NCBI GenBank assembly: GCA_913042205.1
Contig: CAJWIY010000001.1
Span: 54,998 to 118,997 of the forward strand
From: an uncultured Gammaproteobacteria bacterium
GTDB taxonomy: Bacteria; Pseudomonadota; Gammaproteobacteria; Pseudomonadales; Litorivicinaceae
Length of the DNA: 64,000 nucleotides
Direction of reading: 5' to 3'
The position numbers and the translations under genes are program-made. Each line of letters starts with the position of its first letter. The first letter of the stretch is position 1. Shown one piece after another: positions 5,575 through 48,095 of the stretch. The notes below the pieces were generated by a model. That model saw only the letters and a program-made list of their open reading frames with translations. It did no database searches and was not told where the DNA came from.

Positions 5575-6690
5575 TTAATGGCTTAAATTCCGTACATAGC
5601 GGTGTTGGACGAAGATCGGATCGCAGACGGTGCAACGAAGGTCCTTGCCCCTGACCTCTGCTAATAATTCTGTACCGATAGCATTCAAATTCTGTGACAC
5701 GTAACCCATAGCCACCGGTCCGTTATGCGTTGGTCCAAAACCTCCAGAAGTGATTTCTCCGACCACATTGCCGGCGATATTTTTCAGTATCGTGTGATCC
5801 CTCAATGGAGTTCTTCCGTCTTCCGGTTTAATACCGACTCGCTTTCGAGATGATCCGTCTTTGATCTGTTTGAGAATTATCTCAGCGCCCAGGAACCCAC
5901 CATCTGTTCTGCGGCGTTTTTGGATTGACCACGAAAGATCAGCCTCGATTGGTGTCGTGTCAGTGGTGAGATCGTTGCCGTATAGGCACAGACCTGTCTC
6001 AAGCCGCAGTGAATTTCGAGCGCCTAAACCAACCCAAGTGGTTTCCTTCAATTGAGTGAGTGCCTCGGCCAATTCACGTGCAAATTGTTTGGCAATCGAG
6101 ATTTCATAGCCATCTTCGCCCGTGTAGCCGCAGCATGACAGCGTGATGTCATGGCCGTTCCACAACGTTTGAGTTGAGCGCATGAATATAAGTTTTTCTG
6201 CTTCGGGTATCATTTCAGAAAGAACGCGACGGGCTTTGGGTCCTTGGACAGCTATTAAGGAGTAATTATCCAAATAGCGCATGGTAACGCCTGCCGGAAG
6301 GTGCTTTTTTAGGTGGTCCATGTCTCCATACTTGCAGGCGCCATTAACCACTAGACCCCAGTACTCGCCGTCCAATCGTGTCAGCATTAGGTCATCGAGG
6401 ATGCCACCATTATTTAGAGTCAGTTGCGAATATCGGATTTGACCAGGAATCATTTCTTGAAGCGCTGCGGGTACCAATTGTTCAAGAGCCTTTGTCGCTC
6501 CGGTCCCCTCGATCAGAAGTTGGCCCATATGTGAGACATCAAAGAGGCCTACAGCATCTCGGGTGTGTATATGTTCGCCTTTTACTCCGAGGGAATACTG
6601 CATAGGCATCCTATAGCCTGCGAACGAGCCAAACTTCGCGTCTTGTTCTACGTGGAATGATTCTAAAACCAACGAGTGTAGATCCGTCAT
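5575..6690 (-). CDS. gcvT: glycine cleavage system T protein (aminomethyltransferase)
   Basis: VGLFDVSHMGQ, LRLETGLCLYGNDL, TSGGFGPTHNGPVAMGYV. Start chosen at MTDLHSL, preceded by AGGAG. Confidence 0.97.
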   Translation of the reverse strand: MTDLHSLVLESFHVEQDAKFGSFAGYRMPMQYSLGVKGEHIHTRDAVGLFDVSHMGQLLIEGTGATKALEQLVPAALQEMIPGQIRYSQLTLNNGGILDDLMLTRLDGEYWGLVVNGACKYGDMDHLKKHLPAGVTMRYLDNYSLIAVQGPKARRVLSEMIPEAEKLIFMRSTQTLWNGHDITLSCCGYTGEDGYEISIAKQFARELAEALTQLKETTWVGLGARNSLRLETGLCLYGNDLTTDTTPIEADLSWSIQKRRRTDGGFLGAEIILKQIKDGSSRKRVGIKPEDGRTPLRDHTILKNIAGNVVGEITSGGFGPTHNGPVAMGYVSQNLNAIGTELLAEVRGKDLRCTVCDPIFVQHRYVRNLSH

Positions 6691-6729
6691 GCATACTCCT
6701 TTCAGGCTATTTCGCATGACCCATCTGTC

Positions 6730-6994: not shown

Positions 6995-7615
6995 TTACGG
7001 ACCGCTCCAGTTGATTTGACATATTTCTGCGCTTCGATCTTCGAAGTCCCAGACCCGACCAAACGCTCTGACTCTGCCTTTCAGCGCCTTTGATATCGTA
7101 ATATCTGGACCCATCCAGTAGTTTGTGTTTGTTACGGAAACAGCCTGATTTTCGTCGGCCCCCGTTATTGGCTCAACACTTCCAATGATTTTTTTTCCTA
7201 CCGTGAGGCTTCGAACTTGCTTTTCTGTTTTAAACTCGATCGGCTCCCTAGAGGTACCGAGATGCTCACTGATTAGCAGAGAAAAAAGGTGAGTAGTTCC
7301 TTTTGCTTTGCCGCTGAAGATCTGGCTGAGGCCCTCGTATGCGGGAGCGGATGCTCTTTGGTCAATAAATATTCCAGCTTTCCAATCCCCTCTAGACATT
7401 CGACCCGGTATATCAATAAGCATAGCCACTTTGAGGTCGTTGAGATCCTCGTTACCGAAGCGTCCTTCATGGATATTGACACCCAGCCATGCTTGGCAGT
7501 GACCCTCTGTGGGATAGTGCACCCCCAGACTAATCACGCACGGACAAAAGACCGTGCAGTTACAATTGAGAATCAGTTCTCCCTTTATATGCCAGGATGG
7601 AAATTCTGAGCTCAT
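6995..7615 (-). CDS. DUF1326 domain protein
   Basis: MSSEFPSWHIKGELILNCNCTVFCPCVISLG (CxCx3CxC motif), ...GHCQAWLGVNIHEGRFG. Start at 7615 overlaps the upstream stop (ATGA). The longer ORF track start (7918) is embedded in the DUF2182 gene. Confidence 0.8.
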   Translation of the reverse strand: MSSEFPSWHIKGELILNCNCTVFCPCVISLGVHYPTEGHCQAWLGVNIHEGRFGNEDLNDLKVAMLIDIPGRMSRGDWKAGIFIDQRASAPAYEGLSQIFSGKAKGTTHLFSLLISEHLGTSREPIEFKTEKQVRSLTVGKKIIGSVEPITGADENQAVSVTNTNYWMGPDITISKALKGRVRAFGRVWDFEDRSAEICQINWSGP

Positions 7616-8388
7616 GTTATTACCTCCAAAAATATTGAGAGAACGAGAGTGATCGAGGCGGCACCAATCAGTGTCATCCCTACCAGTCCAGAGAATTTTT
7701 CGCTTAGGTGGCCTTGTTTCTCGATAATCATGATGGATGTTAAACCAGCCATCCAGAGCATATTCATTGCGCCGCCTACGAATGCTAGGAGCATGAGAGC
7801 CCAACAACAAGTAACGCAGACTATCCCCAATTGCAGTCCCATCCGGAAAGAGCCTGTGTGGCCTTCTTTCCAGTGACTCAAGAAAAAATGCATCGGGGAT
7901 GAGCAGACGGTAAGACACGCGTTTTTAATTTTTGTGAATTGATATACGCCGGCTGTGAGTAGAAGAAGACTGTTTAAAAACATTGACTGACTTCTACCGT
8001 CCAGATCTATCAGGTTCTGATCGAGGAAGTACTTCTGAGTGAAGCTCGCTACGGGGACCACGGTTACCCAGATAGCAACGTAACCCGACGTTAGTAGGGC
8101 CGTATGCTTGAAATCATTCCGTCTGATGTCTTGGTGTACGACCACGAAGTTGTAAAAGGAGGGAAGCATCATTGCTCCGATCATCAGACTCCACATTCCA
8201 GTTAGCTGAAATGTGGATGCCTCAGATGCTGATATGCAGAAGTCCTTGATAAACGTCAAACCCGGTGCTTTGTCGGTGGCCGACATGACGAAAAGCAGTA
8301 TCCAACTCGAACAAATGATTCCGTAAAACAATATCCAGAAAGTGTAGGACGGTTTGATTATGGTTGGTGTCCCGTCAAGATGCGTCAT
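7612..8388 (-). CDS. DUF2182 predicted metal-binding integral membrane protein
   Basis: Motifs GMWSLMIGAMMLPS, VYQFTKIKNACLTVCSSP, CVTCCWALM; multiple TM segments. Overlaps the acyl-CoA ligase stop by 4 nt. Confidence 0.8.
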   Translation of the reverse strand: MTHLDGTPTIIKPSYTFWILFYGIICSSWILLFVMSATDKAPGLTFIKDFCISASEASTFQLTGMWSLMIGAMMLPSFYNFVVVHQDIRRNDFKHTALLTSGYVAIWVTVVPVASFTQKYFLDQNLIDLDGRSQSMFLNSLLLLTAGVYQFTKIKNACLTVCSSPMHFFLSHWKEGHTGSFRMGLQLGIVCVTCCWALMLLAFVGGAMNMLWMAGLTSIMIIEKQGHLSEKFSGLVGMTLIGAASITLVLSIFLEVIT

Positions 8389-10025
8389 GGATTGAGTTCT
8401 TGGCGTAACAAAAATTTTTGAACCTTACCGGTGGCGGTCTTAGGGATTTCTCTGAATATGACTTCCTTTGGGGTCTTAAATCCAGCAAGGGAGCGACGGC
8501 AATGGTTTATTATCTCGGTCTCCGAGTATTCCGTATCTGCCTTAAGCTCAATCACGGCGACAGGAACCTCGCCCCATTTTTCACTGGGCTTGGCTACGAC
8601 CGCTGCACATGCAACCCCCGGTAGGCGATACAAAACATTTTCCACTTCGACAGACGAAATATTTTCCCCGCCCGAGATTATTACATCTTTAAGGCGATCT
8701 TTGATTTCAATATAACCATCAGGATGTCGGACCGCGATGTCTCCGGTCCGGAAAAATTTATCGTCTTTGAAGACAGTCTCTGTTGCTGCCTCATCTTTGT
8801 GATAACCCTTCATCAAGGTGTTGGATCTAATCACAATTTCGCCCTGAGTTTTTCCGTCGTGTGGGACCGGCTGGTTGTCTGCTAGCCGAAGTACTTCTGT
8901 TTCTTCGGTGTGAGTGAATTGGACACCCTGACGGGCTTTTATAGTGGCCCGTTCACCAAAATCTAGATCATCCCAGTCTGTGTTCCAGGCACAGTGCATT
9001 ATGTGACCAAACGTCTCAGTTAAGCCATAGACCTGCATGATCTCCATCCCTAACTGTTCAACCTTTTCAAGAACCGCAGGTGGTGGCGGTGCACCTGCTG
9101 TCATGACTTGAACAGAATGCTTAAATGTCTTCTGATCAATCGCTGGGGCGTTGATTAAGAGACCTAAGACGACCGGGGCACCACCAAAGTGTGTGACCCT
9201 ATATTCGCTGATTGCGTCGAAAATTATTTTGGCACTAATTTTTTTTACACAAATAATTGAGCCGGCCACCAGCGCATTCAGCCAGGCATGGCCCCAGCCG
9301 TTACAATGAAACATTGGTACGGTGTAGAGATAGACCGGATGCTGCGGTACGCCCCATGCAGGCACTGTTCCCATAGCCATCAGATATGCGCCACGGTGAT
9401 GAATCACGACACCTTTGGGTGTGCCTCCTGTACCTGAGGTGTAGTTTAGGCCGTATGCTTCCCATTCACTCTCTGGCAGTGACCATGAATCATCTGGGTC
9501 TCCGCTTTCAAGAAAGTCATCGTAAAGAACTTCTTCTGGGAAGTGATGTCGGGAGGCTTCATGCTCGGGGCACGGGATTACGATTAGTTTTTTTTCGTTC
9601 CTGTTGATTTGGGTTAGTGCTAGTTCTAGCTGCGCTGTGAGTTCGGCGTCTACGACAATAAGCGCAGGCTCCGCGTGCGCTATGATTCCAGCTATCGTGT
9701 CTTTGTCCAGTCTGGTGTTTATGGTATTCAATACCCCCCCTGCCATCGCGACGGCGAACTGCAACTCAACCATTTCTGGTGTATTGAAGGCGAGAACGCT
9801 TATGACCTCACCACGCCTGACACCGAATTTTTTTACTGCAGAGGCGAAAAGGCAGCAGCGTGTATAGACCTCGGACCACGTCCTTGTTTTCCCGTTATAG
9901 GTGGTGGCCGGTTTGTTCCCATAGACCGCCGCCGTTCTCTTGATAAACGACAGAGGACTCAGGGGGACATGATTCGCAGCCCTCGGCCCCATAAATTTAC
10001 TGTTGATCGAATCTACTGTGGTCAT
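8385..10025 (-). CDS. AMP-dependent acyl-CoA synthetase; candidate MMPA-CoA ligase (DmdB-like)
   Basis: ANL family: NYTSGTGGTPKGVV, VYGLTE, FRTGD, C-terminal PKTATGKVQK; lies 7 nt downstream of the dmdA-like gene. DmdB specificity is inferred from context. Confidence 0.85.
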   Translation of the reverse strand: MTTVDSINSKFMGPRAANHVPLSPLSFIKRTAAVYGNKPATTYNGKTRTWSEVYTRCCLFASAVKKFGVRRGEVISVLAFNTPEMVELQFAVAMAGGVLNTINTRLDKDTIAGIIAHAEPALIVVDAELTAQLELALTQINRNEKKLIVIPCPEHEASRHHFPEEVLYDDFLESGDPDDSWSLPESEWEAYGLNYTSGTGGTPKGVVIHHRGAYLMAMGTVPAWGVPQHPVYLYTVPMFHCNGWGHAWLNALVAGSIICVKKISAKIIFDAISEYRVTHFGGAPVVLGLLINAPAIDQKTFKHSVQVMTAGAPPPPAVLEKVEQLGMEIMQVYGLTETFGHIMHCAWNTDWDDLDFGERATIKARQGVQFTHTEETEVLRLADNQPVPHDGKTQGEIVIRSNTLMKGYHKDEAATETVFKDDKFFRTGDIAVRHPDGYIEIKDRLKDVIISGGENISSVEVENVLYRLPGVACAAVVAKPSEKWGEVPVAVIELKADTEYSETEIINHCRRSLAGFKTPKEVIFREIPKTATGKVQKFLLRQELNP

Positions 10026-10032
10026 TTTATCC

Positions 10033-11145
10033 TTACCTTATAATCGGTAGCGGAGTCACTCGTGCCTCTCTTTTACAATCTGAGAAGTCAACAACTACTT
10101 CGCTCCCGTCAATTGCGTGTCTGGTGTCTATAACACCGACCGCGATATTGGAATTCAGTCTTGGGCTGTATGCCGCTGCAGATGCGTAACCGACGTAGTT
10201 GTCGTCAGCGTAGATTGAAGACTTGTCCTCGGGGGGTGAATTAAACATTGGTCCATCGACCCGGAGCCCAATAAAGTCTCGCTTTACACCGGTCTGCTTG
10301 ATCTTTTGCAGTGCCGCCTTGCCAATAAACTCCTGATTTTGATCGAGGTCAATAAAACGACCAAGGCCAAACTCAAACGGGTTACTATGCTCGTCACAGT
10401 CGGTTCTGAAGGAGAGCAGCCCACTTTCCAGTCGTTCGACATAGTTTGGCGCACCTGGACCAATATTATATTTTGCCCCCGCACTTTTAACCTCGGCCCA
10501 TAAGCTTTCTCCCAGATTGTTATCGAGCAGATAGATCTCAAAGCCTCCCTGTTTCGACCAACCGGATCTGGCCAAAATCACTGGGATACCCTTTAACTTT
10601 GTTTTCTCGAAACCAAAAAATTTGAGATCATGGACCCACTGTCCAAAAAGGTCGGCAATTAAAGGTGCCGCGAGCGGTCCCTGGACCGCGAGTGGTGAGG
10701 CGTCAGGTTCGAAAACATCGACACGATATTCAAGGGAGTCAGCGATTCCCGATACCCATAATTTGATATCACTGTCTGCTATCGATAACCAAATTTCGTC
10801 TTCTGAAATTTGGAGCAGGATAGGATCGTTTATGAGTCTCCCTCGGTAATCGCAGAGTGGAATGTATTTACCTTGACCGATCTGTAGGTCGCCCAGATTT
10901 CTGCCTGTGAGATACCGCGCAAGCTTGACTGCATCCCTGCCTTTAAAGGCAACTTGCCGTTCTATGCTGACATCCCACATAGCCACCCCTTTTAATAATC
11001 GATCATACTCCGCGGATCTATCACCGTAACTGGTCGGGAAATACATGTGGTTATAGATGCTAGCCGACGTAAGCCCATCCCGTAACGTAGATTGGAAAAA
11101 AGGACTCTTTCGGTTCTGTGGACCGATTGAAAGGGAGATTGTCAT
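10033..11145 (-). CDS. dmdA: dimethylsulfoniopropionate demethylase (DmdA-like; GcvT-fold)
   Basis: IYNHMYFP, WDVSIERQVAFKGRDAVKL, NDPILLQISEDEIWLSIADSD, LKFFGF...ARSGWSKQGGFEIYL, NIGPGAPNYVERLESGLLSF, NPFEFGLGRF closely track the SAR11 DmdA sequence as I remember it; clearly distinct from the bona fide gcvT at 5575..6690. Confidence 0.82.
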   Translation of the reverse strand: MTISLSIGPQNRKSPFFQSTLRDGLTSASIYNHMYFPTSYGDRSAEYDRLLKGVAMWDVSIERQVAFKGRDAVKLARYLTGRNLGDLQIGQGKYIPLCDYRGRLINDPILLQISEDEIWLSIADSDIKLWVSGIADSLEYRVDVFEPDASPLAVQGPLAAPLIADLFGQWVHDLKFFGFEKTKLKGIPVILARSGWSKQGGFEIYLLDNNLGESLWAEVKSAGAKYNIGPGAPNYVERLESGLLSFRTDCDEHSNPFEFGLGRFIDLDQNQEFIGKAALQKIKQTGVKRDFIGLRVDGPMFNSPPEDKSSIYADDNYVGYASAAAYSPRLNSNIAVGVIDTRHAIDGSEVVVDFSDCKREARVTPLPIIR

Positions 11146-11261
11146 GCTCGCTCCTCTTTTTTTTTCGACTTTGCAGGAAAACTTTTTGTGGAGTCAATTA
11201 ATTTCGCGCCGCTAATCGAAACCGGCTGAGTAAAAAGAGTGTCTGTTTAACGGCTTAAACT

Positions 11262-12104
11262 TTATTTGAATAATTCTTGCGCGAATTTGGCGGTTTTTCG
11301 AAAACCGCCAAATGCGTAGAAGTGGATCGATTCAAAGCACGTGTTAGCCGAGGGGGAAAATTGTGGGGCTAGGAAACAAATTAGCTCGGTGGGGTCGTAT
11401 GAATTTATAAGTTTGGTCAGCTTGTCCCGCTCGTTGATCAGAAATTTTAATGAGGGTCCAACACCAGCCTTAATTGCAAAATTGATTAGTGAAAGTAATT
11501 TCGTGGGACCAGCAACACCGACTCGGATTGGCAGCGAGTTACCTCTGTCGCGGATTGCCTTTTCCCAATTGATTATCTTCTGTGCATCGAAGCAAAATTG
11601 AGTCTCGAGAAAAATATTCAGATCTCGCGATGCGGCGAGGTAATTTTTTTGATCGAGAGCGTCCTGGAGTTGTTGTTGCGTGATGTCAGGAGAACCCTCT
11701 GGATGACCTGCTACTCCGATGTTAACGATACCATAGTGTTCAAATACACCAGAGCTGATGAGGTCTGCAGAACTTGAGAAGCGGCCAGCAGCTTGATCCT
11801 TGCTGCCAGCGATGATGAGGACCTCTGAGATCTCCAGATTGGCATATTTTTCCACGACCCTGGCTAGGTCATCTTCGTCGGTTATGGTGCGGGCGGTGAT
11901 GTGCGGTATCGGATTCATGCCATCGTGTTTCAATTTCTCAACCGCTGTAAGAGTGTCTCGGACGGACGTCTTCGGCAGGTTGGTAACGTTAACTTTGGTG
12001 CCCTCTTCGAGAAACGACGAGAAACAACCGATGGTCTTAGTTTCTTGTGGCGTGATCTCTATCGACCAGTCCTTGAGCGTACCTTTGGCATCAAACGTTT
12101 TCAT
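11262..12104 (-). CDS. methylenetetrahydrofolate reductase-like protein (MTHFR C1-domain paralog)
   Basis: From MKTFDAKG: PHITARTI, VLIIAGS(K)DQAAG, NIGVAGHPEGSPDI, FLETQFCFDAQKIINW, IRVGVAGPTKLLSLINFA. Second MTHFR-type gene in addition to metF at 51770..52624. Confidence 0.8.
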   Translation of the reverse strand: MKTFDAKGTLKDWSIEITPQETKTIGCFSSFLEEGTKVNVTNLPKTSVRDTLTAVEKLKHDGMNPIPHITARTITDEDDLARVVEKYANLEISEVLIIAGSKDQAAGRFSSSADLISSGVFEHYGIVNIGVAGHPEGSPDITQQQLQDALDQKNYLAASRDLNIFLETQFCFDAQKIINWEKAIRDRGNSLPIRVGVAGPTKLLSLINFAIKAGVGPSLKFLINERDKLTKLINSYDPTELICFLAPQFSPSANTCFESIHFYAFGGFRKTAKFAQELFK

Positions 12105-41292: not shown

Positions 41293-42060
41293 GTGATGGT
41301 TTGTTTCGAATGCTTCGGATTGCGTATTCGGTTTCACTGGTTGTCTGCGGTCATCGCGTTTCTCTTATTTCTTGCGTTCAGTAGTTTGGGCATTTGGCAG
41401 TTTGGTAAGGCTAAAGCCAAAATAGAGGCGTTGGAACAATCAGAGGTTTTGGCCTCTCAAGAGCCGGTTAATTTGAGAGAGCTCTCGTTCGGGGGGCTGG
41501 TCTCTGATCGGATCTCGTTGCAAGGTAAGGGTGTGTTCATTAACGGCCATTACTTGAATGATAAAAATATCTTTCTCATCTATAAACACTATCAGGATAT
41601 GATTGGCTACGAGGTAATCACACCGTTTAGGATCCGGGAGGACAATGGGGTTGTTCTGGTGAGCCGCGGTTGGATAACCGCGCCATCTCCAACCCAGCTC
41701 GTTGAAAAAATTACCCCTGTTATTGGCGAGATCCGTTTAACCGGGCAGATATACGTGCCCGAGTCTGATGTTGAGGTGGGCGCGGAAGAGTTGAGGGATG
41801 TTGAATGGCCACTGATAACAAAGGATATCGGCGCAACAAATTTGAAAGATATATTCGATGGTCCGATTTATCCTTATCTAGTTCGAGCGGGTGAAGACGT
41901 CCCTGGGGTGCTGGTTCGATACTGGCCAGTCATAAACCCAGACCTTGGTATGCATTTTTCCTATGCGATGCAGTGGTTTGGTATGGCTTTGTCTGTCTTG
42001 GCAGTATTTTTTATAGCTTGCTCTGGCCTAAAAGATCGCTTTATCAGGTGGCTCAAGTGA
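41293..42060 (+). CDS. SURF1 family cytochrome oxidase biogenesis protein
   Basis: SSLGIWQFGKAKAK, GVVLVSRGWI, RYWPVINPDLGMHFSYAMQWFGMALSVLAVF. Confidence 0.9.
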   Translation: MMVCFECFGLRIRFHWLSAVIAFLLFLAFSSLGIWQFGKAKAKIEALEQSEVLASQEPVNLRELSFGGLVSDRISLQGKGVFINGHYLNDKNIFLIYKHYQDMIGYEVITPFRIREDNGVVLVSRGWITAPSPTQLVEKITPVIGEIRLTGQIYVPESDVEVGAEELRDVEWPLITKDIGATNLKDIFDGPIYPYLVRAGEDVPGVLVRYWPVINPDLGMHFSYAMQWFGMALSVLAVFFIACSGLKDRFIRWLK

Positions 42061-42108
42061 GACGAGGAACTTGTGGATGAGTCAACACAGTAGGGACAGG
42101 CTTTTAGC

Positions 42109-42315
42109 GTGATTCGGCTTTTGTATCTAATGATATCTATAGTCTCGGGAGCCATTTCATTGGTGTGCTTTGTGGGAACCGTCTCGACCATTCTGGAGGG
42201 GGGTACCATCCAAGCGATCGATGCGTTGGTTGGGGGTATAGTTCTCGGAACAGCGAGCGCTGCCGCCGCGGTTATCAGCTACCAAAGGGCTAGGAACACT
42301 GAAGATAAAGGTTAA
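42109..42315 (+). CDS. small membrane protein, unknown function
   Basis: GTG start; 68 aa, two TM segments, between SURF1 and cox genes in the same orientation. Confidence 0.5.
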   Translation: MIRLLYLMISIVSGAISLVCFVGTVSTILEGGTIQAIDALVGGIVLGTASAAAAVISYQRARNTEDKG

Positions 42316-42517
42316 TACCAAGGTCTAAGCGGCTTGCATCAAAAAAATAAACTCGGTATACAAGAGGAAGAATACAGCACCAAGTCTTGTTGGCAGCGAC
42401 AATGATCGGTTTAGCGGGTCACAAAAGCGACCGTAAATAGCGGGTGTATGAGGGTTGGTCCGCAGTAGAATTTAGTTACTTTCCGTTCGATAAAAATAAA
42501 CTTGGAAGGGGCCCTAA

Positions 42518-43099
42518 ATGAAGTGTCTATACTATTTGACACCAGACCTTGTGAGTACCCACAGGGTATCCGACGACCTCCACGAGGCGGGGGTTGGCGA
42601 TGGGTTCGTCCACATTGTAAGCCACGATGAGGCCGGGCTCGCTCGCAAGCACCTACATTCAAGTAATTATCTAGAGACCTTGGATATTGTTCGCGAGGTT
42701 ATAATTGGGACGCTTCTTGGTTTCTTGGGCGGTATGGTAATCGCTCTGGTGATAAAGCTTATCGATCCCTTTCCGATGCAGCTTCCCTTCTTAGCTTATT
42801 TGGCTATAGTTGTGTTTTACACAATGTTTGGGTGCTGGGTCGGTGGCTTAGATGGTTGGGCTAAACGCAATCGTAAGATCGAACGCTTCATGCCGGACAT
42901 CGAGGCTGGAAAATATTTGGTTTTGGTATACGCTAAGCAGACACAGTTGGAAAATGTTTTCGATATGATGGCCTCGAGGCATCCGGAGGCAAAGCTGGTG
43001 GCAAGTGATAGTCGTTTCATGAACCCGTTTAGTACGTTGGAAGTTATTAAGGGGACACATAAAGCGATCCGGGCGGGGGTAGTCTCTCCGGTAACTTAA
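42518..43099 (+). CDS. DUF1269-like membrane protein, unknown function
   Basis: Central glycine-rich TM hairpin (VIIGTLLGFLGGMVIALVIKL...YTMFGCWVGGLDGWA) flanked by soluble domains; 193 aa. Confidence 0.6.
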   Translation: MKCLYYLTPDLVSTHRVSDDLHEAGVGDGFVHIVSHDEAGLARKHLHSSNYLETLDIVREVIIGTLLGFLGGMVIALVIKLIDPFPMQLPFLAYLAIVVFYTMFGCWVGGLDGWAKRNRKIERFMPDIEAGKYLVLVYAKQTQLENVFDMMASRHPEAKLVASDSRFMNPFSTLEVIKGTHKAIRAGVVSPVT

Positions 43100-43128
43100 A
43101 AATCGAAGCATCGCTCGGCTATCTAATT

Positions 43129-44577
43129 TTGGCCGGGCGAGGCATTAAAAAAACGCGCAAAGTAAAGGATAACTTAAGCATGGCGTTCGCAATTATAATA
43201 GCACTCCTAGTTATAGGCTCGGTCATATTCCACGCATGGAGTCCTTGGTGGCTCACCCCAATCGCCTCGAATTGGGGCTCCATCGATACAACGATAGATA
43301 TCACTGTCTGGGTGACAGGGTTCGCTTTCGTTGTGATTAATCTTTTCTTAGCTTACACGGTCTACAAATACAGGTACTCGAAGAAGCGTAGGGCTGAGTA
43401 CGAGCCCGAGAACAAGAAACTGGAAATCTGGCTTACAGGAATCACATCTGTCGGGGTTGCTGCCTTGCTTGCCCCGGGACTGTTTGTTTGGGCCGACTTC
43501 GTTAACCCACCCGAGGAGGCGCATGTGGTTGAGGTTACTGGGCAGCAGTGGCAGTGGGCCTACCGCTATCCCGGGGCCGATGGCAAGTTAGGTGCTGCTG
43601 ATCCTGGCCTCATCACCGAGGCAAACCCCTTCGGGATGAAGGAGGATGACCCGGCCGGGCGGGACGATATTTTGGTCGAGAGCGCTATTATGCATCTGCC
43701 GGTCGACAAGCCGGTCAAGGTTGTCCTGCGGTCAAAGGATGTCCTGCACGATTTCGCTGTCGCGGAGTTTCGCGTGAAGATGGATATGGTGCCGGGCGCG
43801 GTGAGCTATCTGTGGCTGACGCCTACCAAGACAGGGACATACGACATCCTCTGTGAGGAGCTCTGCGGTGTGGGCCACTTTGTTATGCGGGGTAGGGTTA
43901 AGGTCCAGGAGCAGGCCGATTTTGACCAGTGGCTGGCCTCCCAAAATACCTACGAGGATGCCCTAGCTCTTGCGAGAGTTGATAGGGCCAACGGCCAGGC
44001 CACATATGCCATGTGTGCGGGTTGTCATGGTGTGCAGGGTGAGGGTAATCCAGCACTAAATGCCCCACAAATCGCTGGTCTACAAGACTGGTATGTGACC
44101 GCCCAGTTGGAGCACTTCAAGACGGGTATCAGAGGCGGCAATCCTGCAGACACTTACGGTGCGCAAATGATCGGTCTAGCCGCCGCGTTGCCAGACAGTC
44201 AAACGATACGGAACCTGTCCGCCTACATTAATTCGCTTCCGGCTACTCAGACTAAACAGACCCTGAGTGGCAACCTGAAAAATGGTAAAGAGCTCTACGA
44301 CCACAACTGTAGCGTGTGTCACGGTGACAACGGACGGGGTGTGTGGTCGGTACATGCGCCAAAGCTGGCCGGAATGGACGATTGGTACCTGGCCCGGCAG
44401 CTGAGACACTTTAGAGACAAAGTGCGTGGCGCACATCCGGAGGATGACTTGGGTCACCAGATGCAATTAATGGTGTCAGTTTTGGGTGATGACCAGGCGA
44501 TAAACGATGTGGCTGTATACATATCCGGGTTGGGCTATAGCGACCCTAGCTATGTAGCGGCAAGTAAAGCGAATTAA
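43129..44577 (+). CDS. coxB: cytochrome c oxidase subunit II fused to two cytochrome c domains
   Basis: CuA motif CEELCGVGHFVM, GQQWQWAYRYPG; two c-heme sites CAGCH and CSVCH. Confidence 0.95.
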   Translation: MAGRGIKKTRKVKDNLSMAFAIIIALLVIGSVIFHAWSPWWLTPIASNWGSIDTTIDITVWVTGFAFVVINLFLAYTVYKYRYSKKRRAEYEPENKKLEIWLTGITSVGVAALLAPGLFVWADFVNPPEEAHVVEVTGQQWQWAYRYPGADGKLGAADPGLITEANPFGMKEDDPAGRDDILVESAIMHLPVDKPVKVVLRSKDVLHDFAVAEFRVKMDMVPGAVSYLWLTPTKTGTYDILCEELCGVGHFVMRGRVKVQEQADFDQWLASQNTYEDALALARVDRANGQATYAMCAGCHGVQGEGNPALNAPQIAGLQDWYVTAQLEHFKTGIRGGNPADTYGAQMIGLAAALPDSQTIRNLSAYINSLPATQTKQTLSGNLKNGKELYDHNCSVCHGDNGRGVWSVHAPKLAGMDDWYLARQLRHFRDKVRGAHPEDDLGHQMQLMVSVLGDDQAINDVAVYISGLGYSDPSYVAASKAN

Positions 44578-44603
44578 TTTTTTGGAATGTTGAGGAAGCA
44601 AGA

Positions 44604-46373
44604 ATGGCTTACGTACCGATAGCGGATCGTCCGGATGAGATGCATGATCCGCAGAGCTTTATAACGAAATACATCTGGAGTCAGGATCATAAGGTAATTG
44701 CGATCCAGTACGGTGGGACCGCGATCGCGATTGGTGTAGTGGCTCTGGTGTTGTCGGTGTTGATGCGACTGCAATTGGGCTTCCCAGACACCTTCGCGTT
44801 CATCGATCCGACAGACTATTACCAGTACGTGACCATGCACGGCATGATCATGGTTGTTTATCTTCTCACGGCACTGTTCTTGGGTGGGTTTGGTAATTAT
44901 CTGATTCCTCTGCAGATCGGTGCTAGGGATATGGTGTTCCCGTTCCTGAATATGCTGAGTTACTGGTTTTATCTGTTGTCGGTCATCATTTTGGCGGCGA
45001 GTTTCTTTGTGGCGGGTGGTCCGACGGGCGCTGGGTGGACCTTGTATCCGCCTCAGGCGATTACTGAAGGTACGCCGGGCGCGGAGGGTGGCATTCTTCT
45101 GATGCTTCTCTCTTTGGCTGTCTTCGTTGTTGCTTTTACGATGGGCGGGTTGAATTACGTGACAACAGTCCTGCAGGCCAGAACTCATGGCATGACTCTG
45201 ATGAGGATGCCGCTATCGGTTTGGGGTATATTTGTGGCAACGATCCTAGGATTGTTCGCGTTCCCGGCCCTGTTTGTCTCAGCAGTCATGATGGCGTTTG
45301 ACCACTTATTGGGGACCAGCTTTTTTATGCCCGCTATGATATCTCTGGGAGAATCTGTTGAGCACGCGGGTGGAAGCCCAATTCTGTTCCAGCACTTGTT
45401 TTGGTTCTTTGGGCATCCTGAGGTTTATATCGTCGCTCTGCCAGCCTTTGGCCTGGTGTCTGATGTGCTAAGTACCCACGCTCGTCGTAACATCTTCGGC
45501 TACCGGATGATGGTTTGGGCGATTGTAGCGATTGGCGGGCTGAGCTTTATCGTCTGGGCGCACCATATGTATGTGAGTGGAATGAATCCATATTTTGGCT
45601 TTTTCTTCGCATTCACTACGCTGATTATTGCGGTTCCGACCGCGATCAAGGTTTACAACTGGGTTCTCACGTTATGGAAGGGGAATATCCGAATGACGGT
45701 CCCGATGTTGTTCGCGATGGGCTTTATTTTCACATTCATCCACGGCGGTTTGACGGGTCTTTTCCTCGGGAACGTGACCGTGGATCTACCACTCTCTGAT
45801 ACCTATTTTGTGGTCGCTCATTTTCACATGGTGATGGGCGTGTCACCGGTTCTTGTTTTGTTTGCAGCGATCTACCACTGGTTCCCTAAAATCAGCGGCA
45901 GGATGTTTGATGAGAAGCTGGGTAAAATCCATTTCTGGGGAACTTTTCTGGGTACCTACGCAATCTATTTGCCAATGCACTACATCGGCGCATTGGGTGT
46001 ACCACGGCGTTATTTTGCGCTTGGTACTACTGATTTCATCCCCGAATCTGCGTTCGAGCTTAACGCCGCTATCACCGTTGCGGCTCTGATCGTGGCTGCA
46101 ATTCAGGTCGTGTTCTTTATCAACGTATTCAAGAGCCTCTGGAAAGGCGAAAAAGCCGATCCAAACCCATGGGAAGCGACCTCGTTAGAGTGGCACACCC
46201 CTCATACGCCGCCCCATCATGGTAACTGGGGGCCGAATCTACCGGTCGTCTATCGCTGGGCCTACGAGTATGCTACTCCTGGCGTCAAAGACGATTTTGT
46301 GCCGCAATCGGTCCCACCGGGTGATGTGGTCATGAAGAAAAAAGGGGACGTGTTTAAGGAGTCAGAGCATTGA
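44604..46373 (+). CDS. coxA: cytochrome c oxidase subunit I
   Basis: WFFGHPEVYIVALPAFGLVSDVL, MNPYFGFFFAFTTLIIAVPTAIKVYNW, YFVVAHFHMVMG. Confidence 0.97.
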   Translation: MAYVPIADRPDEMHDPQSFITKYIWSQDHKVIAIQYGGTAIAIGVVALVLSVLMRLQLGFPDTFAFIDPTDYYQYVTMHGMIMVVYLLTALFLGGFGNYLIPLQIGARDMVFPFLNMLSYWFYLLSVIILAASFFVAGGPTGAGWTLYPPQAITEGTPGAEGGILLMLLSLAVFVVAFTMGGLNYVTTVLQARTHGMTLMRMPLSVWGIFVATILGLFAFPALFVSAVMMAFDHLLGTSFFMPAMISLGESVEHAGGSPILFQHLFWFFGHPEVYIVALPAFGLVSDVLSTHARRNIFGYRMMVWAIVAIGGLSFIVWAHHMYVSGMNPYFGFFFAFTTLIIAVPTAIKVYNWVLTLWKGNIRMTVPMLFAMGFIFTFIHGGLTGLFLGNVTVDLPLSDTYFVVAHFHMVMGVSPVLVLFAAIYHWFPKISGRMFDEKLGKIHFWGTFLGTYAIYLPMHYIGALGVPRRYFALGTTDFIPESAFELNAAITVAALIVAAIQVVFFINVFKSLWKGEKADPNPWEATSLEWHTPHTPPHHGNWGPNLPVVYRWAYEYATPGVKDDFVPQSVPPGDVVMKKKGDVFKESEH

Positions 46374-47023
46374 GATTTCTTAAGGCAATACTGAATAAGC
46401 CTTGGGACCACCAGGGCGAGGCGGCGAGTGCCATTGCTGGAGACATGATGAGTGTCTCCACATCCCCGCAGCAGTTGGCGCTGAATCTGTTTCTTGCGGT
46501 CGCGAGTGTTCTGTTTGCACTCTTCGGGGTCGCTTACCTTATGCGGATGGAGGTCGATACAAGTAGTCCGTTCTTTTGTGGTGCTGGGTATTGGGAGGTA
46601 CTCCAAGAGCCGGATTTATTGTGGCTGAATACTGGGATTTTGGTCCTGACGAGTGGGGTTATTGAGTTCACCAAAAGAGAATCTCGCGCAAATAGGTCGC
46701 TTGCCACCAAGATAGGATTGAGTGTCGGCGCTCTACTGACCTTGGCTTTCCTGTATGGTCAGTCCGCGGCTTGGGGAATACTTCATGAGAATGGCCATCT
46801 GGTTGACAGTACTGCTGCCTCATCATTTTTCTATTTATTAACTGGGCTCCATGCGCTCCACCTTATTGGGGGGCTGTGGGTCTGGCTTTCTGCCACGATG
46901 TCTGCGTTCTTGGATCGTGATGAACCGAACAAGGTCAGCGAGACTGTCAGGCTCTGTGCAATCTATTGGCACTACCTGTTGCTTTTGTGGGTGGGGCTGT
47001 TCGCTTTGTTTTTGAATACTTAA
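46370..47023 (+). CDS. heme-copper oxidase subunit III-like protein (first copy)
   Basis: TTG start overlapping the coxA stop; LLTGLHALHLIGGLWVWLSA, AIYWHYLLLLWVGLFALF. Confidence 0.85.
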   Translation: MRFLKAILNKPWDHQGEAASAIAGDMMSVSTSPQQLALNLFLAVASVLFALFGVAYLMRMEVDTSSPFFCGAGYWEVLQEPDLLWLNTGILVLTSGVIEFTKRESRANRSLATKIGLSVGALLTLAFLYGQSAAWGILHENGHLVDSTAASSFFYLLTGLHALHLIGGLWVWLSATMSAFLDRDEPNKVSETVRLCAIYWHYLLLLWVGLFALFLNT

Positions 47024-47039
47024 GAAGGGACTCTTAGAG

Positions 47040-47711
47040 ATGAGTGCAACGGATATAGCAAACCCGGCCGGAACATCGGAATTTGTAAAGGACTGGTCTT
47101 CCGAAAAACAGACCTACCATGTGCCTTGGGGCAAGGCCATGATGTGGCTTTTCCTGGTCAGTGATACGTTTATTTTCACCTGTTTTTTGGTTGGTTATTT
47201 AAACGTTAGGCGAACAACCACTGACCCATGGCCCTATCCAAGCGAGGTATTTGCGTTAGAGTTATTTGGGCACAATCTCCCTCTGATCCTTATCGCAATA
47301 ATGACATTTGTTCTGATCACTAGTAGCGGGACCATGGCGCTGGCGGTTCGGTATGCCCATTTCCGGGATAAGCAGAAGATTTTCTGGTTCATGGTAATTA
47401 CTGCATTGTTCGGTGCGACCTTTGTCGGGATGCAGGTGTTCGAGTGGTCTAAGCTCATTTCTGAGGGTGTGAGGCCCTGGGCCAATCCTTTTGGTGCGCC
47501 ACAGTTCGGATCTATTTTCTTCATGGTGACGGGCTTCCATGGGGTGCATGTGTCGATTGGTGTTCTATACCTCTTGATCGTCGCCAACAAAATCAGAAAG
47601 GGCGACTATGATAAAAGTGGTAATTACGAGATCGTAGAAATTACCGGACTTTATTGGCACTTCGTTGATCTCGTCTGGGTGTTTATTTTCGCATTCTTTT
47701 ATCTTTGGTAG
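47040..47711 (+). CDS. heme-copper oxidase subunit III (second copy)
   Basis: MMWLFLVSDTFIFTCFLVGY, FFMVTGFHGVHVSIGVLYLL, GLYWHFVDLVWVFIFAFFYLW. Confidence 0.92.
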   Translation: MSATDIANPAGTSEFVKDWSSEKQTYHVPWGKAMMWLFLVSDTFIFTCFLVGYLNVRRTTTDPWPYPSEVFALELFGHNLPLILIAIMTFVLITSSGTMALAVRYAHFRDKQKIFWFMVITALFGATFVGMQVFEWSKLISEGVRPWANPFGAPQFGSIFFMVTGFHGVHVSIGVLYLLIVANKIRKGDYDKSGNYEIVEITGLYWHFVDLVWVFIFAFFYLW

Positions 47712-47723
47712 GGAGACAGAGAC

Positions 47724-48095
47724 ATGAGTTCCGAGGCTGATCAAAATCATCACCCGATAGGGATTTATTTAAAGGTCTGGACACTGCTATTTGTGCTCAG
47801 TATCGCTTCTTATATGGTGGACTACTACGACTTTCAGGGACTGCTTCGTTGGACCCTAATCATTGCCTTTATGCTTTTGAAGGCGGGTTTTATTATGGCG
47901 GTGTTTATGCACTTGATGTGGGAACGTATGGCGCTGATTGGGACCGTCTTGGCTCCCCCATTAGCCTTATTGTTTCTGATTGGGTTCATGATCTCCGAGG
48001 GCTACTATGTCTTCGATGCACGGGTCGACTACTTCGGACAGCCAGAGGCCGCGACCCGGATTCACGTGTCTGATGTTTTGGGGACCAAGCACTAG
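47724..48095 (+). CDS. cytochrome c oxidase subunit IV (prokaryotic)
   Basis: IYLKVWTLLFVLSIASYMVDYY, LLKAGFIMAVFMHLMWER. Confidence 0.88.
   Translation: MSSEADQNHHPIGIYLKVWTLLFVLSIASYMVDYYDFQGLLRWTLIIAFMLLKAGFIMAVFMHLMWERMALIGTVLAPPLALLFLIGFMISEGYYVFDARVDYFGQPEAATRIHVSDVLGTKH

Follow-up and report, generated by a model that had tools for sequence, protein, structure and literature searches.

Gene organization of the locus

The 64,000-nucleotide stretch of DNA analyzed here (the window) belongs to a 2.0 Mb genome, 98% complete, of a seawater bacterium in the HIMB30/OM252 genus of the Litoricolaceae, the family in which the OM252 clade has been placed (PMC8269220). Its minus strand carries a compact cluster that reads, from 5' to 3', MTHFR-like, dmdA-like, acyl-CoA ligase, DUF2182 and DUF1326. 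The last two genes (the pair) show a strong association with the catabolism of dimethylsulfoniopropionate (DMSP), a sulfur compound made by algae. All five genes were confirmed and are listed below with their lengths in amino acids (aa); MMPA denotes methylmercaptopropionate.

11262..12104, minus strand: MTHFR-like gene (PF02219, Pfam 40 bits), 280 aa, ATG at 12104
10033..11145, minus strand: DmdA-type GcvT-fold demethylase, 370 aa, PRK12486 358 bits, best PDB match 3TFH
8385..10025, minus strand: acyl-CoA ligase, candidate MMPA-CoA ligase, 546 aa, PRK08162 735 bits
7612..8388, minus strand: DUF2182 (PpoB2 family) membrane protein, 258 aa, PF09948 178 bits
6995..7615, minus strand: DUF1326 protein, 206 aa, PF07040 162 bits

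An initial annotation, made from the letters of the window, had given this gene order, strand and spacing, and it is correct to the base. The MTHFR-like gene and dmdA are separated by 116 bp and dmdA and the ligase gene by 7 bp, while the ATGA overlaps that it reported can be read in the sequence at 8388-8385 (ligase/DUF2182) and 7615-7612 (DUF2182/DUF1326). The MTHFR-like start at 12104 agrees with the 843-nt open reading frame (ORF) of relatives, the longest ORF reaching 12212. For DUF1326 the ORF extends to a GTG at 7918; the ATG at 7615 is likely the real start, because it is preceded by ggagg and is kept in relatives.

Strain HIMB30 retains the four-base overlaps although its DUF2182 is 44% identical to that of the window, and all five genes show ratios of nonsynonymous to synonymous substitution (dN/dS) of 0.05-0.21 against close relatives, which indicates purifying selection. 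Both observations argue that the coupling of these genes is more than chance.

Association of the pair with DMSP catabolism

DUF2182 has been renamed PpoB2, 'copper chaperone', in Pfam. PpoB2 is present in 32 of 321 gammaproteobacterial genomes, mostly adjoining DUF1326 and without dmdA. Two genomes of another gammaproteobacterial family have the orders PpoB2-DUF1326-DmdA (G240) and DUF1326-DmdA-ligase (G126). A scan with a DUF1326 alignment recovers 80 loci, mostly from Rhodobacteraceae, with PpoB2 at 75 of them, AcuI at 60, DmdA at 53, a ligase at 19 and the methanethiol oxidase MtoX/SBP56 at 5. The tie to DMSP catabolism proposed in the initial annotation is thereby upheld, and the dmdA neighbourhood is not confined to this lineage, since Rhodobacteraceae and another gammaproteobacterial family have the same pairing.

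Among 131 evenly drawn Rhodobacteraceae genomes, with DmdA counted above the curated cut-off, 66 contain DUF1326, 53 contain DmdA and 44 contain both (Fisher p = 5e-10, uncorrected for relatedness). Expressed by genome type, 44 of 53 DmdA-bearing genomes have DUF1326, versus 22 of 78 others. DUF1326 lies within 5 kb of 39 of the 57 bona fide dmdA genes, in all 39 cases upstream and on the same strand, and of 0 of the 35 DmdA-like genes that score 300-410 bits. At dmdA-free loci of this family the pair mostly stands beside acuI. Because acuI adjoins the pair as regularly as dmdA does, the partner of the pair is DMSP/acrylate catabolism, not methanethiol oxidation alone.

The association is also specific to one clade. 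Of the 106 DUF1326 proteins at least 50% identical to the window copy, 96 are encoded within 5 kb of a DMSP gene, compared with 1 of 32 other DUF1326 proteins; the 50% set was partly collected by similarity to the window protein, and the proportions describe this collection. The proteins of the 50% set form a single clade with a support of 99 in the Shimodaira-Hasegawa-like approximate likelihood ratio test (SH-aLRT). Two copies from f105 (43-44% identity) were tallied as 'other', yet on the tree they fall within the DMSP clade with support 99. PpoB2 accompanies DUF1326 of either kind in 132 of 138 cases. The pair occurs with three types of DmdA (canonical, window-type and f105), and therefore tracks the pathway and not one enzyme.

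Incidental hitch-hiking in one transferred cassette, an option that the initial annotation had allowed, would explain why the cassette behaves as an all-or-none block within the window's genus. It also accords with a Rhodobacter metagenome-assembled genome (MAG) in which an MTHFR-like gene, a pterin-binding protein, DmdA, ligase, PpoB2 and DUF1326 follow one another in nearly the window's order (L161:2121-9255), an arrangement suggesting that clusters have passed between Alpha- and Gammaproteobacteria. Nevertheless, the pair persists while gene order varies, with each of three DmdA types and in two classes, and all five window genes are under purifying selection, which makes this explanation highly improbable.

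The link has left traces in existing annotations. On Antarctobacter heliothermus pSMS3-2, DUF2182, DUF1326, a 'dimethylsulfoniopropionate demethylase' and an MDR oxidoreductase are annotated consecutively, and on Marinovum algicola pMaD9 the pair is labeled 'Transmembrane protein' and 'protein involved in DMSP breakdown', so the annotators of M. algicola had already noticed it. The open-access literature searched contains no mention of DUF2182, DUF1326, PF09948 or PF07040 and no function for the pair. DMSP demethylation is among the largest oceanic organosulfur fluxes, and its dmdA-acuI operon has been studied in detail; most sampled DMSP-demethylating Rhodobacteraceae nevertheless carry, in that same operon, a conserved pair whose role is so far undescribed, suggesting that a step in marine sulfur cycling has been overlooked.

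Two further arrangements were observed around DUF1326. In many Rhodobacteraceae a DinB-family gene lies between DUF1326 and dmdA or acuI (e.g. L189:9600-10127). In two Hyphomicrobiales MAGs (L182:4073-5164 and L220:809-1900) a DMSP-clade DUF1326 is followed by Sulf_transp (YeeE/YedE-type) and AIM24 in place of DMSP genes.

The cassette in the Litoricolaceae

Of the 25 genomes of the family, the same 9 carry this dmdA-like gene, PpoB2 and DUF1326, and the remaining 16 have none of the three. The cassette lies between two genes that flank its insertion site and are themselves outside it:

5575..6717, minus strand: gcvT, left flank, PRK13579 477 bits
12286..13539, plus strand: glyA, right flank, identified from its translation by eye and from the synteny of L102-L114

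In cassette-free relatives such as L111, glyA adjoins gcvT. HIMB30 and G017 carry the cassette inverted relative to both flanks. Within the genus it is either there as one block or missing. A published survey of OM252 genomes reported DMSP demethylation genes to be missing in every genome (PMC8269220); contrary to that survey, HIMB30 and its relatives do have a dmdA-like cluster, with scores under the curated cut-off. No DmdD orthologue is found in the genus at E <= 1e-50, a role for which AcuH could stand in (PMC10746254). AcuI/YhdH is present in 22 of the 25 family genomes and is consequently uninformative here.

Two of these genomes (G004 and G005) also have another dmdA-like cluster, of a different make-up and lacking the pair, in the order DmdA-like (SRTGWSSELGYE type)-OsmC-enoyl-CoA hydratase-ligase (L107:8765-12851 and L108:8470-12544). 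The SRTGWSSELGYE-type cluster recurs in L236, L258, L261, L264 and L266, and SBP56 is near it in several Rhodobacteraceae.

Assignment of the demethylase and ligase

The window DmdA falls under the 410-bit equivalog cut-off of the NCBI DMSP demethylase model PRK12486, as does the HIMB30 copy (385 bits), and its match to the DmdA structure 3TFH is 272 bits. DmdA proteins of SAR11 and Rhodobacteraceae share the signature SG[WYF]SKQGG[FY]E, which is not found in GcvT. At this site the window DmdA has SGWSKQGGFEIY, as in the DmdA of P. ubique (SAR11), and the window GcvT has CGYTGEDGYEIS. On the tree, the window protein lies outside the canonical DmdA clade and joins DmdA-like proteins of Marivivens and Phaeobacter G2 with support 97. 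MMPA chemistry for this clade is supported by its Marivivens member, whose neighbours are dmdD and genes for a ligase and an acyl-CoA dehydrogenase. Annotated Rhodobacteraceae DmdA share 38-39% identity with the window protein, and SAR92 DmdAs are functional at 38-40% identity to that of R. pomeroyi (PMC10746254). A published DMSP-specific residue, W171 (PMC7487153), was not used as evidence, its mapping being uncertain: Rhodobacteraceae DmdA have Tyr/Phe at the matched position. DMSP is the likely substrate of the window DmdA. The DmdA identity in the initial annotation is softened by the sub-threshold score and the non-canonical clade. The MTHFR-like protein probably oxidizes the 5-methyltetrahydrofolate that comes from the demethylase.

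The score of the window ligase exceeds the 677-bit cut-off of PRK08162, a subfamily that also includes the ligases next to dmdA in Phaeobacter, Marinovum and Marivivens. Against the DmdB model PRK07008 it reaches 279 bits, below the equivalog cut-off of 822. The ligase in the dmdA-dmdD cluster of P. inhibens is likewise of the PRK08162 type (PRK07008 314 bits).

Conserved features and possible function of the pair

The initial annotation described DUF2182 as a Cys/Met-rich membrane protein and reported a CxCx3CxC motif in DUF1326, and both descriptions hold. The window PpoB2 far exceeds its Pfam gathering cut-off of 28.7 bits. Its core residues M65, M69, M73, M74, C158, C162, C191, C194, C195 and M199 are 87-100% kept across 102 DMSP-clade and 30 generic copies, and C51, M213 and M220 are additions of the DMSP clade. 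A single-chain AlphaFold2 model is nearly all helical, with helices lined by Met and Cys (predicted local distance difference test score, pLDDT, 89). In DUF1326 the motif reads CNCTVFCPC (C18, C20, C24 and C26) and is joined by a fifth Cys, C40. These five Cys are invariant in 138 homologs (108/108 DMSP-clade and 30/30 generic), and H33, M168 and C199 are specific to the DMSP clade. The protein has no evident signal peptide, and its AlphaFold2 model is beta-rich (pLDDT 86), with the lowest confidence at the Cys loop, residues 22-32.

The closest point of reference is the PpoB2 (COG5486) of the Marinomonas mediterranea tyrosinase operon, a copper chaperone that passes copper to tyrosinase (PMC2855505). 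Both proteins belong to PF09948, and both are membrane proteins encoded in the operon of the process they serve or would serve. The window differs in having no tyrosinase, a DMSP operon, the clade-specific C51, M213 and M220 and a DUF1326 partner, the last being a feature read on the window side only. Generic gammaproteobacterial DUF2182-DUF1326 pairs likewise have both families side by side with the same Cys/Met core; unlike the window pair, they have a DUF1326 that is about 30% identical, no recurrent neighbour and no DMSP genes. In the Rhodobacteraceae the pair immediately precedes dmdA-acuI in many cases, among them Antarctobacter, and in Marinovum it is upstream of ligase-dmdA-acuI, whereas the window cluster lacks acuI and has a non-canonical DmdA. 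The published account of the dmdA-acuI operon does not mention the pair (PMC3338564).

A metal role for the pair fits the assignment of DUF2182 to a copper chaperone family, and a soft-metal role is favored because the conserved Cys, Met and His are soft-metal ligands and the studied PpoB2 moves copper to tyrosinase. We therefore put forward, tentatively, that the pair handles Cu(I), being the DMSP-specific clade of a widespread soft-metal module of two genes, and that it was recruited into the dmdA-ligase operon (dmdA-acuI in Rhodobacteraceae). DUF1326 would bind Cu(I) in the cytoplasm through CxCx3CxC and the fifth Cys, and would give it to, or receive it from, the polytopic PpoB2 with its Met/Cys helices. 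DMSP breakdown yields methanethiol, which as a thiolate binds Cu(I) strongly, along with acryloyl-type electrophiles, and under such stress the pair would most likely keep copper traffic correct and re-supply membrane or periplasmic copper enzymes. DMSP demethylation may then include a dedicated membrane copper- or thiol-handling step, needed when methanethiol or acryloyl-CoA forms and conserved across Alpha- and Gammaproteobacteria and three demethylase types, although we advance this with reserve. If the pair handles copper, DMSP turnover would be tied to trace-metal status.

Several observations weigh against the copper proposal. The metal binding is itself predicted from sequence, neither family has solved relatives, and the PpoB2 model has no PDB fold match at E below 0.001. 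Generic pairs lack a recurrent copper gene neighbour (no family occurs in more than 2 of 86 neighbours), and no copper enzyme partner was identified in this genome. Moreover, 9 of the 53 DmdA-bearing Rhodobacteraceae genomes are entirely without DUF1326. Finally, the DUF1326 model weakly resembles acetoacetate decarboxylase (ADC)-like barrels (best E about 1e-5, TM-score about 0.3-0.47), so that the protein could be an enzyme and not a chaperone.

On that alternative, DUF1326 would be an ADC-like, perhaps metal-dependent, enzyme acting on a DMSP/acrylate intermediate or a thiol adduct, while PpoB2 would anchor it to the membrane, load its metal or act as an exporter. The clade-specific H33, M168 and C199 agree with it, as do the constant AcuI neighbour and the frequent DinB-family protein; the DinB superfamily includes thiol S-transferases. 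We consider it unlikely, given TM-scores below 0.5 and an invariant five-Cys core that is the same in generic DUF1326 outside the DMSP context and so points to a shared metal function.

The pair could instead form a thiol-disulfide or thiol-handling relay for methanethiol export or detoxification. Both proteins have Cys-rich pairs (CLTVC and CVTCC in PpoB2, CxCx3CxC in DUF1326), and two DMSP-clade members adjoin a gene of the sulfur transporter family Sulf_transp. The conserved helix Met (M65/69/73/74 and M199), on the other hand, are better suited to binding a soft metal than to redox chemistry, and the only PpoB2 studied moves copper (PMC2855505), leaving such a relay doubtful as well.

The metal or thiol role in the initial annotation, which is in keeping with the copper chaperone family, came with a link to the copper-dependent methanethiol oxidase MtoX/SBP56 that is not sustained. 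In its specific form, the pair would mature this enzyme in place of the SCO1/MauG genes that stand beside mtoX elsewhere. MtoX contains Cu (PMC5739008), SBP56 is close to the pair in the 5 of 80 surveyed loci given above, and Marinovum pMaD9 has the order PpoB2-DUF1326-ligase-DmdA-AcuI-SBP56, with SCO1/MauG not annotated. SBP56 is nevertheless found in 0 of 25 Litoricolaceae genomes, including 9 with the pair, and is absent from 17 of 30 pair-bearing genomes elsewhere (present in 13). MtoX maturation is thus ruled out for this organism and is not general, and as an account of the pair it is very unlikely. The SCO1/SenC-MauG maturation genes of mtoX (PMC5739008) resemble the pair in placing a copper-delivery candidate beside an organosulfur oxidation gene; they differ in belonging to other protein families, and the window's lineage has no mtoX.

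In many Rhodobacteraceae, the gene after SBP56 encodes a 218-aa protein without a Pfam match (L231:13961-14617; also L189, L196, L199, L212, L261, L266 and L277), which is a candidate for an undescribed MtoX partner. Elsewhere in the window, positions 41293-48095 hold a SURF1-like gene and a cytochrome c oxidase operon; by inspection there is no Cox11-like gene among these, and the operon includes two COX3-like genes and a CoxB with two extra heme-c motifs.

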